Shown here: in pieces, positions 25,532-30,044 of the stretch
Numbering within the stretch: position 1 is the first letter of the stretch
How the letters are laid out: every line of letters begins with the position of its first letter
Assembly: GCA_013214635.1 (NCBI GenBank)
Contig: JABSSC010000044.1
Span: forward strand, 1-41,016
Reading direction: 5' to 3'
DNA: 41,016 nucleotides
Source of the DNA: Paracoccaceae bacterium
GTDB lineage: Bacteria > Pseudomonadota > Alphaproteobacteria > Rhodobacterales > Rhodobacteraceae
Made by a program: the position numbers and the translations under genes
The notes under the pieces: generated by a model
The model's database searches: none
What the model was told of the DNA's origin: nothing
The model's input: only the letters and a program-made list of their open reading frames with translations

Positions 25532-26665
25532 ATGCCAATCGAATTGACCGACATAACACTTAGCGGAGCGCAAATTTTGCTCTCAGAAGGTTGGACCGAG
25601 ACCTCCTTGTCCATCCGTGCTGGGCGTATTGTTGACACCGGAGCGAAAGCTTTGGACGTAACCGGCTTTCAAGTCTTGCCCGGCTTGGTAGATCCCCACG
25701 TCGAAGTCGCTGCCGCTGTGGATGACCCTGTTGCACGATTGGCTGCGCTAGACGTTTGGTTGGCGCGCGCTGGCATCACAACTGCTTGGATCGCGCAGGA
25801 CTGGAGCCTTGATGAAGGCCCACGGTCGCCGGAATACGCTGAGGCATTCCTCGAGGGACTGAATACCTATCAGCCGCTGACAGATCTCGATCTGCGGGCA
25901 CGGTTGATGGTGGAAACGCATATGCCTGAAACCGCAGCGGTTATGCTTGCCGCGATACGGCGATACAGCGTCGACTATGTTGTGTTCGGATCTGAAATTG
26001 CGCCACCCGGTCAACTGTCGCAACGTGCAGAGGCTCAGTTGCGTGTGCGGAGCGAGCTTCACGCTGTTCGGCTCAAAGCCGCGGCTGAGCGGAGGTCGGA
26101 AGTTCCCCGGCATCTGTGCCGGTTGGCCGAGGCGTTCGATGTGCTAGGCGTTTACTACGCGAGCCACGCCGATGTTTCGGCCGAGGGACGTGAGACCTAT
26201 TCCATGATCGGTGCGCGGATCGCTGAGTTCCCTGCCACCCGGAGCGCTGCAGCGACGGCTCATGCGATGGGGGACCCGGTCGTTTTGCGGGCGACGGACA
26301 TTTGCCGGGGCGATGGGCCGGGGCGGGCGTCTGCGCTTGAACTCGTGGCGGCGAATTTGTGCACCGCGCTTGCGTCGGGCAATCACGCGCCGTCGCTTGT
26401 TCAGGCCGCGTGGACGTTGGTCGATCTCGGTGTGGCCAGTCTTCCCAAGGCTTGGGCGCTCGTGTCGTCAGGGCCAGCACGGATGCTGGGGCTTCGCGAC
26501 CGTGGCGCTTTGATCCCGGGGATGCGGGCAGACATGATCATCGTTGAACAGGGATCGCGCGACATTTCCTGTGTCATTGCACGCGGGCGCGTGGTCTTTG
26601 CCAACGACAGCTTTGCACGCCGCCTGGATGGCAGCGCGCCACCCCCGCACCTCGCAGCCGAATAA
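25532..26665 (+). CDS. PhnM-like amidohydrolase with eroded metal-binding motifs
   Basis: A 377-residue protein with the composite amidohydrolase layout. An N-terminal beta part (LSIRAGRIVDTG) leads to VLPGLVDPHVEV; a barrel follows; and the C-terminus is MLGLRDRGALIPGMRADMIIVE. The barrel most resembles PhnM, the C-P lyase accessory diphosphatase: YYASHADVSAEG, IAEFPATRSAAATAHAMGDPVVLRATDICRG and APSLVQAAW align with SHDDAT, AEFPTT and ASLL in PhnM. Ligand positions differ: HVE at 56-58 where HTD is usual, SHAD for SHDD at 211-214, and no Asp in ASGNH at 281-285 where SSDYY is expected. No other phn gene is nearby. It is probably a non-canonical or inactive relative. No clear ribosome site precedes the ATG. 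Confidence 0.7.
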   Translation: MPIELTDITLSGAQILLSEGWTETSLSIRAGRIVDTGAKALDVTGFQVLPGLVDPHVEVAAAVDDPVARLAALDVWLARAGITTAWIAQDWSLDEGPRSPEYAEAFLEGLNTYQPLTDLDLRARLMVETHMPETAAVMLAAIRRYSVDYVVFGSEIAPPGQLSQRAEAQLRVRSELHAVRLKAAAERRSEVPRHLCRLAEAFDVLGVYYASHADVSAEGRETYSMIGARIAEFPATRSAAATAHAMGDPVVLRATDICRGDGPGRASALELVAANLCTALASGNHAPSLVQAAWTLVDLGVASLPKAWALVSSGPARMLGLRDRGALIPGMRADMIIVEQGSRDISCVIARGRVVFANDSFARRLDGSAPPPHLAAE

Positions 26666-26666
26666 C

Positions 26667-27866
26667 CTAGGCAGAGATCCCAAGTCTCTGAAGATGCTTG
26701 GGAATATCCTTTTTGAAGCGAAAGAACCCTGCGGTCGCGGACGGCCAGCAAATGCGATCATAGGTCTGCATGTGCCGCGCGATCTTGTGCGTTCTGGTGA
26801 TGCGCGCCAGGGCCTCCGCACCGGGACCGACGGGCGCATAAGTGGCGACGATCTGGGTCGCGGGTTCCGCGGAAATCACGTCATTCAGCGCGTCCGCCCC
26901 GTCGGCGTCCAGCGTGACGTGCGTGACCTCTCCCAATCGATCTGCCATGCGCGTCACCGCATCTGCCATAGCGGCTTTTGCAAAGGCCTTTGATCTATCG
27001 GACACGATCAGCGGTGATCGCAGCGCCGTGGTGTCGAGCACCACCGTACGCTGAATTTCGATGCCCTCGGGGATCGCGCGGGATGACAAATCATCATCGG
27101 TCAGGATCAGCGTCGCGGGCTGCGGATCGTATGTCGGCAAAACGTCGGAAATTGGTCGGCGTTCTGTCGGCGGAAGTGCGGGCAAGGGGGCTGGGTTGGT
27201 CACAAGTTGGCCGGGTGGCAACACGAAACGGCCTTCTGTGTATTTCGAGATATTTGACGCCCGCGCAACGTAGTTTTTACCAACCGTCTGCAGCCCCGCG
27301 ACCCAGCGCCACGACAACGTGTTTGAGGCCGCATCCGCGTCCAGAAGGTGCCGCATGAAGAAATCTGCCCCAAGCTCCCACGGCAGGTTGAGCGTGAACA
27401 CCCAGATTGAGGCGAACCACATCCGCGCGTGATTGTGGAGGTATCCGGTATCCGCGAGTTCTTTTGCCCAGTGATCGAACGCGGAAATCCCGGTATCGCC
27501 CCGACAGGCTGCCTCCCAGTCTGCACGCAGCCCCCCTTCGGTCGCGATCCGGTTCCGGGCCCCATTCAAGCCGCGCCGATAATCGGACCAAACGGTGGGA
27601 CGCTGTTCGAGCCAGCCTTTCCAGTACGTCCGCCAAAAGACTTCCTGAACGAATTTCTCGGCCGCCGACAGGCTGTGGCGTCCCAGCACGGCGCGCAAGA
27701 CCTCTTCTTCGGTCAGAATGCGATGGCGGATATAGGGCGACAGCCGGGACACATCATCGTGACCGGGTCGGTCGTAATTGCGCTGGGCGGCATAGGCGCG
27801 ACCGGCCAAGGGCACAAAGGCGGATAGCCGTTCGAGGGCGGCTGTGCGGGTGGGGTCAAATGTCAT
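26667..27866 (-). CDS. Photolyase/cryptochrome-family FAD protein with apparently permuted domain order
   Basis: A 399-residue protein. Residues about 25-215 match the helical FAD-binding half of photolyases: [61 protein letters not shown] in two parts, and [16 protein letters not shown]. Trp163 and Trp186 keep the 23-residue spacing of Trp359 and Trp382 in E. coli photolyase. Asn182 matches the flavin-contacting Asn378. The normal N-terminal antenna domain is missing. Instead, residues about 245-399 look like an alpha/beta fold ([66 protein letters not shown]) resembling that domain placed at the end. The usual RIFNP..Q segment is replaced by [13 protein letters not shown]. Repair, signalling or another role is undetermined. 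Confidence 0.75.
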
Positions 27867-27929
27867 CGCAGGGAGGTATTTTTGCAGACCCCGGCTTCAA
27901 GTGCGACGGCAGGCAAAAAGGTGCCAGCC

Positions 27930-27958
27930 CTTGAAGCCCCCGGATCGCGTCACTAAGA
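27930..27958 (+). promoter_or_regulatory. Possible heat-shock (RpoH-type) promoter of clpP
   Basis: CTTGAA at 27930-27935, within CCCTTGAAG, is the RpoH -35 core. After 17 nt comes CTAAGA (27953-27958) as a weak -10. clpP is a typical RpoH target. The -35 match is good and the -10 is poor, so this is tentative. Confidence 0.35.
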
Positions 27959-28011
27959 CATGGGTAACCCCAAGCCTTTATGGCACCTCCACACCAAAGC
28001 AGGCAGTCATC

Positions 28012-28638
28012 ATGCAAGACCCTTATGAGACCTATATGAACCTCGTCCCTATGGTCGTCGAACAGACCAGCCGGGGGGAGCGCGCTTACGACATTTTCTC
28101 GCGTTTGCTGAAAGAACGGATCATTTTTCTGAACGGTCCGGTGCACGATGGAATGAGCCATCTGATCGTTGCGCAGCTGTTGTTCCTTGAGTCGGAGAAC
28201 CCGAACAAGGAAATCAGCATGTACATCAACAGCCCCGGGGGTGTCGTGACCGCCGGCCTGTCGATCTATGACACGATGCAGTACATCCGTCCCAAAGTGT
28301 CCACACTTATCGTGGGCCAGGCGGCGTCGATGGGATCTCTGCTGGCGGTTGCGGGCGAAAAGGACATGCGCTTTGCCCTGCCGAACGCTCGTATCATGGT
28401 TCATCAACCATCTGGCGGGTATCAGGGGCAGGCGACAGACATCATGATCCATGCCGAGGAAACCCAGAAGCTCAAGACGCGTTTGAACGAGATTTACGCG
28501 AAACATACCGGTCGCCCGGTAGAAGAGATTGAGGCGGCGCTTGAGCGGGATAATTTCATGTCGCCAGAAGAGGCGCTGGAATGGGGTCACATCGACCAGA
28601 TCTTTGAAAACCGTGGCGGCGACGCCGACGCGGATTGA
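28012..28638 (+). CDS. clpP: ATP-dependent Clp protease proteolytic subunit
   Basis: The 208-residue serine peptidase of the ClpXP/ClpAP protease, a tetradecameric barrel in the cytoplasm. The catalytic triad is Ser106 ([10 protein letters not shown]), His131 ([10 protein letters not shown]) and Asp180 ([11 protein letters not shown]), each shifted by the same offset from the mature E. coli residues 98, 123 and 172. [17 protein letters not shown] is the conserved SPGG segment. The start at 28012 is chosen because [19 protein letters not shown] is the usual N-terminus and AGGCAG precedes it; the open frame extends 56 codons upstream without family similarity. clpX follows after 143 nt. Confidence 0.97.
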
Positions 28639-28695: not shown

Positions 28696-28781
28696 GCGAT
28701 GCATTAGGGCGGGGGTGCCGTGCTGAACACCAGTCAGTACGGATAGAAACGACAGAGGCTTCGGGCCGCAAAGGATACGTG

Positions 28782-30044
28782 ATGGCAACGAATTCGGGCG
28801 ACGGCAAAAACACTCTCTACTGCTCCTTCTGCGGAAAGAGCCAGCATGAGGTCCGCAAACTGATCGCGGGACCGACGGTGTTCATCTGTGACGAATGCGT
28901 CGAGCTTTGCATGGATATCATCCGGGAAGAGACGAAATCGGCCGGGCTAAAATCCACCGATGGCGTGCCGAGCCCAAAGGAAATCTGTGAAGTTCTGGAC
29001 GACTATGTCATCGGGCAGGCACATGCAAAGCGCGTGCTGTCGGTGGCCGTTCACAACCACTACAAGCGCCTCAATCATGCCTCGAAATCCGGTGATATTG
29101 AGTTGGCAAAGTCCAACATTCTGCTGATCGGGCCCACAGGCTGCGGCAAGACGTTGTTGGCGCAGACGCTGGCGCGGATTTTGGATGTGCCGTTTACGAT
29201 GGCCGATGCCACGACACTGACCGAAGCAGGTTATGTCGGTGAGGACGTCGAGAACATCATTCTCAAGCTTTTGCAGGCCAGTGAGTACAACGTTGAACGC
29301 GCGCAGCGCGGCATCGTGTATATCGACGAAGTCGACAAGATCACCCGCAAGTCTGACAACCCTTCGATCACCCGCGATGTGTCGGGCGAGGGTGTGCAGC
29401 AAGCGCTGTTGAAAATCATGGAAGGCACGGTTGCCAGCGTTCCGCCACAGGGTGGTCGCAAGCATCCGCAGCAAGAATTCCTGCAGGTCGATACGACAAA
29501 CATCCTGTTCATTTGCGGCGGTGCGTTTGCGGGTCTCGAAAAGATCATTGCGCAGCGCGGTAAAGGCTCTGCCATGGGCTTTGGCGCCGAGGTCAAAGAA
29601 GAAGACTCGCGCGGCATCGGTGAAATGTTCATGGAGCTTGAGCCGGAAGACCTGCTGAAGTTCGGGTTGATCCCGGAATTCGTTGGCCGCCTGCCGGTGA
29701 TCGCGACGCTTCAGGATCTGGACGAGGATGCGTTGGTCACCATCCTGACCGCGCCGAAGAACGCGCTGGTCAAGCAGTACCAGCGTCTGTTCGAGTTGGA
29801 AGACGCCAAGCTGACCTTTACTGACGACGCGTTGAGCGCCATCGCCAAGCGTGCGATTGAGCGCAAGACCGGCGCGCGGGGTCTGCGGTCGATTATGGAA
29901 GATATCCTGCTTGATACGATGTTCGATCTGCCCGGAATGGACAGTGTCGAAGAGGTTGTGGTCAACGAAGAGGCCGTGAATGCGGACAAGGCCCCGCTGA
30001 TGATCCACGCTGATCAGAAACAGGAACCTGCCAGCGCAAGCTAA
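28782..30044 (+). CDS. clpX: ATP-dependent Clp protease ATP-binding subunit ClpX
   Basis: A 420-residue AAA+ unfoldase that feeds substrates to ClpP. The N-terminal zinc domain has Cys14, Cys17, Cys36 and Cys39 ([18 protein letters not shown]). The ATPase core has Walker A GPTGCGKT at 117-124, pore loop GYVGEDVE at 150-157, Walker [10 protein letters not shown] near 178-186 and the RKH loop at 226-228. The ClpP-binding IGF-type loop is replaced locally by AMGFGAEVK, as in many alphaproteobacteria. The C-terminal [21 protein letters not shown] is canonical. ATG at 28782 is preferred over GTG at 28779 because AAGGA is better spaced. A methyltransferase gene follows after 13 nt. Confidence 0.97.

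Follow-up and report, generated by a model that had tools for sequence, protein, structure and literature searches.

A photolyase gene with its FAD domain first in a Paracoccaceae bacterium, and the probable antenna ancestry of its C-terminal domain

Canonical photolyases begin with an alpha/beta antenna domain and end with a helical domain that binds flavin adenine dinucleotide (FAD). Can a protein with these parts in the opposite order still be a repair enzyme, and is its last domain the antenna in a new place? The question is raised by a gene at positions 26667 to 27866 of a 41,016-nucleotide stretch of contig JABSSC010000044.1 from a Paracoccaceae bacterium (the window). Our analysis indicates that its product, the window protein, is very probably a flavin-dependent cyclobutane pyrimidine dimer (CPD) photolyase of the inverted-order class named NewPHL or short photolyase-like (SPL). 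Its C-terminal domain, which we call the Z-domain, is probably homologous to the antenna domain, although this is not proven, and the link runs through intermediates rather than a direct match.

A gene of known domain order

The gene and its parts are laid out as follows.

26667..27866, minus strand: FAD-first photolyase gene (NewPHL/SPL type), 399 amino acids, ATG start at 27866; 66-member alignment
27177..27866, minus strand: catalytic FAD domain, residues 1-230; Pfam FAD_binding_7; VIA-align Z 18.1 to 2j4d_B
27117..27176, minus strand: linker, residues 231-250, modelled without regular secondary structure
26670..27116, minus strand: C-terminal alpha/beta domain, residues 251-399, with an antenna-like fold by AlphaFold2 model, structure and profile comparisons

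The initial annotation of this DNA had placed a photolyase-type FAD domain in this open reading frame, and the frame indeed encodes one: FAD_binding_7 is the single Pfam match of the protein (residues 72-207, E 1.2e-21, profile positions 1-133 of 203). In a phmmer search of the PDB, class I photolyases, among them 1tez and 1owl, aligned to residues 4-191 at an E value of about 3e-16. Alignments with photolyase FAD domains, whether made by phmmer or VIA-align, begin at residues 1-4, indicating that there is no N-terminal antenna and that the FAD domain starts at the N-terminus rather than near residue 25 as first proposed. The antenna family PF00875 was matched by Pfam neither in the window protein nor in any of the 66 aligned family members, which are the window protein and 65 of the best 80 relative loci; a second family alignment comprised the window protein and 29 of these 80 loci. 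Weak Pfam matches such as those to BLH_phosphatase in 3 of the 66 (best E 3.4e-4) were judged to be chance.

The Pfam FAD profile ceases to match at the stretch following the motif WRWVAG, where the initial annotation had pointed to divergence. This stretch is a signature of the family, with G196, Y199 and N205 invariant in all 66 members. An AlphaFold2 model built on the 66-row alignment (mean predicted local distance difference test score, pLDDT, 95.6; predicted template modelling score, pTM, 0.93) shows helices to residue 209 and, from residue 251 on, five strands with intervening helices, in keeping with the alpha/beta domain foreseen at this end of the protein. In VIA-align the modelled FAD domain is closest to 2j4d_B (208 residues, 2.4 A), followed by 1dnp (Z 17.6) and 1owl (Z 17.2).

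The initial annotation had also suggested a distinct clade, unless this domain order proved to be a described subfamily. It is one: the FAD-first order has been described as NewPHL or SPL, so the clade is not an undescribed one. Our comparisons with published systems draw on those passages of the cited papers that describe them. There, NewPHLs or SPLs are given an inverted domain topology (PMC13274461). NewPHL (Emmerich et al. 2020, NAR 48:12845) resembles the window protein in its N-terminal FAD domain and its C-terminal Z-domain, and it too occurs in alphaproteobacteria, among them the Roseobacter group (PMC9426592, PMC13274461); these descriptions, which we compared as such and not as sequences, contain no difference from the window protein. 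Repair activity is reported for the same-order class in another Roseobacter-group species (PMC9426592, PMC13274461). Three papers set SPL apart as a class of its own that may be ancestral (PMC9178010, PMC9649867, PMC9498864), and SPL proteins (Xu et al. 2021, Mol Biol Evol; SePhrC of Synechococcus elongatus) are said to lie near the class I/III CPD photolyases (PMC9649867, PMC9178010). An Fe-S cluster forms part of the description of SPL (PMC9649867), whereas the window protein has a second domain at its C-terminus and only two cysteines. A literature search combining circular permutation, photolyase and antenna domain found nothing. In itself the gene is unremarkable within a repair class that has already been described.

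A conserved CPD pocket

The catalytic residues argue for repair. In a joint alignment of family, classical and FeS-BCP rows, E75, W78, R79, N145, M149, W163, D176, D178, N182, W186 and W188 are each found in 30 of 30 rows, and the same 11 residues are the majority choice in classical photolyases (27 to 31 of 31 rows). By contrast, the E75, N145 and M149 sites are occupied by Q, H and L in 13 of 13 FeS-BCP rows, a pattern by which the window protein resembles a CPD photolyase more than a (6-4) enzyme. The photolyase spacing of Trp163, Trp186 and Asn182, remarked on at the outset, is borne out, since these residues align with their class I counterparts and are invariant in 66 of 66 members. W186 and W163, both of the class I Trp triad, are retained in all 30 rows. 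These pocket and triad assignments follow the residue numbers and roles in the Anacystis and E. coli enzymes.

Compared with class I CPD photolyases (E. coli PhrB, 1dnp; Anacystis, 1owl), the window protein shares the FAD domain fold and the CPD pocket. It differs in its reversed order, the shortened end of its FAD domain and an alanine in place of the distal Trp of the triad; class I enzymes have an N-terminal PF00875 domain and form a separate group in the tree below, whereas here the FAD domain runs from residue 1-4. The iron-sulfur (6-4)/FeS-BCP enzymes have four Cys ligands and Gln/His/Leu, as against two Cys and E/N/M in the window protein.

Domain order, predicted fold, conserved pocket and family clade are established; the activity is what we infer from them. 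In the mechanism that we propose, the N-terminal helical domain would bind FAD, with N182, D176 and D178 placed at the flavin, and a flipped-out pyrimidine dimer would enter a class-I-like pocket made up of E75, W78, N145, M149 and W188. Blue light would then drive electron transfer from reduced FAD and split the dimer. The antenna-type C-terminal domain would pack against the FAD domain, which lacks some of its usual C-terminal part, and probably closes the flavin site; it may or may not hold a second chromophore. In the NewPHL study the C-terminal domain reportedly seals the flavin site. CPDs in single-stranded DNA are the probable substrate, since this is what has been reported for the class.

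Origin of the C-terminal domain

Where the C-terminal domain comes from is a separate matter. Modelled alone (mean pLDDT 92), it has photolyase N-terminal antenna domains as its best VIA-align matches: 8ijy at Z 9.8 over 117 residues, then 4dja (9.4 over 148), 9hnk (8.9 over 149), class II enzymes (8.3 over 145-147) and 1owl (8.0 over 142). Of the 50 rows listed, 32 are photolyases or cryptochromes, including 8 of the first 10, and many of them are entries for a single class II enzyme; 28 of the 32 align 142-149 of 158 residues and the other 4 align 117-119, and in 4 of the 32 the aligned range extends into the FAD domain. The universal stress protein (USP) 1q77 scores close to the photolyases (Z 8.9 over 113 residues), and USP-family rows align 108-120 residues. 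Foldseek returned no match below E 0.001 for this domain alone, the first being the photolyase 9q8f at 0.001. Thus, the modelled fold is antenna-like, with Z values tied with those of other Rossmann-like folds.

Such a tie leaves room for a different origin, in which a Rossmann-like domain of the universal stress protein type was recruited independently and shares with the antenna nothing but a common fold. The absence of PF00875 matches across the 66 members and the USP 1q77 score, level with photolyases, both speak for such a recruitment. Against it, photolyases and cryptochromes dominate the structural matches, mostly with longer alignments than USP. The sequence profiles bear on both origins, and they depend on relatives in which the two domains are separate.

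Eight shorter relatives in our sample of 289 genomes from the class (L105-L112) possess the FAD domain but no fused Z-type tail. Directly beside the short FAD-only gene, at 8 of 8 of these alphaproteobacterial loci, stands a small antenna-like open reading frame of about 140-150 amino acids (L144-L151), an arrangement like that of picocyanobacterial phr4/phr5. A profile made from the frames behind six of the short genes found matches in 14 of the 289 genomes at E <= 0.001. Eight of the matches are strong, at E 8e-33 or better, and each directly adjoins one of the short FAD genes; the profile had been built from six of these, which leaves the two in G259 and G028 as independent cases. The other seven are weak (E 2e-5 to 4e-4) and lie within frames of 383-648 amino acids, two of them (G237, G244) sharing the frame with a match to the FAD query and one (G072) lying beside such a match. 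Three of the six split-antenna frames match PF00875 weakly in Pfam (E 0.013, 0.041 and 0.11, below the cut-off).

Fused relatives were found on plasmids. A protein of a Deinococcus sp. AJ005 plasmid (L240:1387-2757) carries FAD_binding_7 at residues 102-218 and then PF00875 at 300-395 in one chain, the latter at E 7.2e-4 and 20 bits against a curated cut-off of 26.6. Its cysteines (CAGCP...CPF) resemble Fe-S ligands. Two megaplasmid frames of Persicobacter (Bacteroidota; L242:1426-2601 and L243:1264-2565) also have the FAD domain first, and their tails end in FFAFWKK and FFAYWKK.

We compared profiles of the Z-domain (100 rows, without L072, whose extracted reading has 116 amino acids, and L084, a duplicate of the window), of the classical antenna (28 of 30 loci) and of the split antenna (7 of 8 loci, L150 being without the motif used). 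The split antenna aligned with the classical antenna at a score of 40.3 over 134 columns, and the Z-domain with the split antenna at 30.1 over 128 columns, end to end; in neither case did any of 200 column shuffles, a lenient null, score as high. Compared directly with the classical antenna, the Z-domain scored 24.9 over 66 columns, which 1 of 200 shuffles reached. This direct score equals that of the Z-domain against USP (24.6 over 34 columns) and, taken alone, favours recruitment, as does the lack of signal against DPRP, the FeS-BCP antenna family (20.7), even though an FeS-BCP structure is among the top structural matches. The Z-domain scored 15.4 against ETF; the split antenna scored 27.5 over 29 columns against USP and 20.9 against DPRP; reversed profiles gave 12.8-17.6.

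Adding the Deinococcus domain to the split profile raised the Z-domain score to 35.0 (probability 66) and that of the classical antenna to 45.8 (probability 92), with USP at 29.4 over 32 columns (probability 41). Once the two Persicobacter tails were added as well, the scores were 30.8, 44.8 and 27.4, respectively, and so modest a value for the Z-domain again suits a recruited domain. What tells against recruitment is that the chain from Z-domain through split antenna to classical antenna aligns end to end, whereas USP matches only 29-34 columns, and that Deinococcus has a PF00875-like domain, albeit under the cut-off, at the same place after the FAD domain. We consider independent recruitment unlikely and homology with the antenna probable. 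The natural circular permutant suggested in the initial annotation is partly supported, by the inverted order, the antenna-like fold and an indirect profile link, while homology falls short of proof, the structural scores are tied with USP and the direct profile signal is no higher than for USP.

The picocyanobacterial proteins Phr4/Phr5 and Phr6 likewise have an FAD domain ahead of the photolyase (antenna) domain (PMC9426592). They are described with Fe-S cysteines and an antenna domain detected by InterProScan, neither of which sequence searches found in the window protein, and their authors place them nearest to Phr7 (PMC9426592).

A family tree of this domain order, as proposed with the initial annotation, was built from 85 FAD domains: 30 with a Z-domain (the window protein and 29 of 99 others), 31 classical (28 of the 30 antenna loci plus L001, L002 and L241), 13 FeS-BCP (from 13 of 17 loci), 8 short, of which L110 enters cut at its start, and 3 fused. 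The method was a quick one with Shimodaira-Hasegawa-like approximate likelihood ratio test (SH-aLRT) support only; L002 is a long row, and nine rows have an unusual composition. The classical gene L113 was not among the rows used. The 30 Z-domain rows, nearly all alphaproteobacterial and including the window protein, form one clade (SH-aLRT 99), apart from the classical (99) and FeS-BCP (100) groups. The Deinococcus protein joins the 8 short rows (92), and the two rows from Persicobacter lie separately. Left unconstrained, the tree placed the Z-domain rows with the classical rows at an unsupported 61.7. When the 41 FAD-first rows were constrained to one group, the log-likelihood was 22.95 higher than for the free tree, and the approximately unbiased test value (p-AU) was 0.79. 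A single origin of the FAD-first lineage is thus compatible with the data, though not proven.

On balance, we lean toward the view that all FAD-first photolyases (NewPHL, the alphaproteobacterial split pairs and the Deinococcus and Persicobacter fusions) form one lineage descended from a single reversal of domain order, in which the Z-domain would be a worn-down antenna and the separate-gene stage a surviving intermediate. If this is true, the side on which the antenna first stood becomes testable; the order of events can be tested because an ancestral place with respect to the entire family has been proposed for SPL. The ancestors proposed for the photolyase/cryptochrome family differ between papers (PMC9649867, PMC9498864), and intermediates linking the Z-domain to the antenna domain bear on the origin of the family's two-domain build. 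What is new here is the profile, neighbour-gene and tree evidence, indirect and short of decisive, for the tail as a relocated antenna, together with the divergent pairing with clpP described below; we do not claim the split pairs as unpublished.

Repair or sensing, and the genomic setting

Several points weigh against the assignment as a CPD photolyase. In the family, alanine replaces the distal Trp of the triad (Ala120, 30 of 30 rows; Trp in 31 of 31 classical rows), so photoreduction must go by another route, for which the family-invariant W133, W150 and W155 are candidates by sequence. The flavin-contact site V39 is V in 25, I in 3 and T in 2 of 30 family rows, as opposed to T in 25 of 31 classical rows. 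The class was assigned through published descriptions rather than sequence comparison with the tested D. shibae and M. mesophilicum proteins, and a photoreceptor with a retained pocket may also be compatible with the sequence.

Such a photoreceptor would be a blue-light or redox sensor, as the initial annotation had raised, that signals instead of repairing and uses the C-terminal domain as its output module. Besides the lost distal Trp, it could draw on the company that the gene keeps: it pairs with the protease genes clpP-clpX, and the genome also has a classical-order photolyase (contig C40, under NCBIfam cut-offs), a gene of the DPRP/FeS-BCP type (C18) and another FAD_binding_7 gene (C54), so that repair by the window protein could look redundant. 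However, the residues of the CPD pocket are fixed in 30 of 30 rows, members of the class are reported as repair enzymes in the passages cited above, and the fold of the tail is antenna-like. Nothing that we found favours sensing over repair, and we regard a sensor as quite improbable.

An assembly or frameshift artefact that fused two unrelated genes, conceivable in a fragmented assembly (3.35 Mb in 348 contigs), is refuted by independent genomes, with the full-length order the same in 80 loci of other organisms; in the family to which this bacterium belongs, 49 of 149 genomes, the window's own included, hold a match at E <= 1e-40.

Relatives of the CPD photolyase are numerous. At least 585 of 595 pattern-matching stretches in one-genome-per-species contigs encode them, and in the best 80 the match covers nearly the whole query, so the domain order is not a product of chance or frameshift. 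In the class sample, 171 of the 289 genomes have some match, with ordinary photolyases dominating the list, and 21 genomes, again including the window's own, match at E 7.8e-73 or better (L084-L104); for L101-L103, with frames of 392-441 amino acids, a first look matched the FAD part only. Of 162 plasmid records with a match, 7 have one that spans 80% or more of the query; the annotation there reads 'FAD-binding domain-containing protein' in 6, and 1 has no feature at that place.

The gene is flanked by the following features.

25532-26665: PhnM-like amidohydrolase, convergent, downstream; PhnM families under NCBIfam cut-offs
27867..28011, no strand: 145-bp gap from which the photolyase gene and clpP diverge
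28012..28638, plus strand: clpP, divergent neighbour (NCBIfam)
28779..30044, plus strand: clpX (NCBIfam)

The best 80 relative loci include clpP in 57 and clpX in 54. clpP is divergent in 56 of the 80 and lies about 132-269 bp away in 47 of these, distances being extrapolated from alignments. The 23 loci without clpP comprise 8 with Rhodobacteraceae-type names and 15 others; both flanks are complete in only 62 of the 80, so some absences may be contig ends. Since the 80 loci are the closest relatives, common ancestry may be enough to account for the pairing; the photolyase gene and clpP may share a start region, or the locus may simply be stable. The PhnM-like gene was found at 0 of the 80 relative loci. 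The additional FAD_binding_7 gene of this genome (C54, 2-1102) is cut by the contig end, and a PF00875 piece on another contig (C28, 2-355) perhaps continues it.
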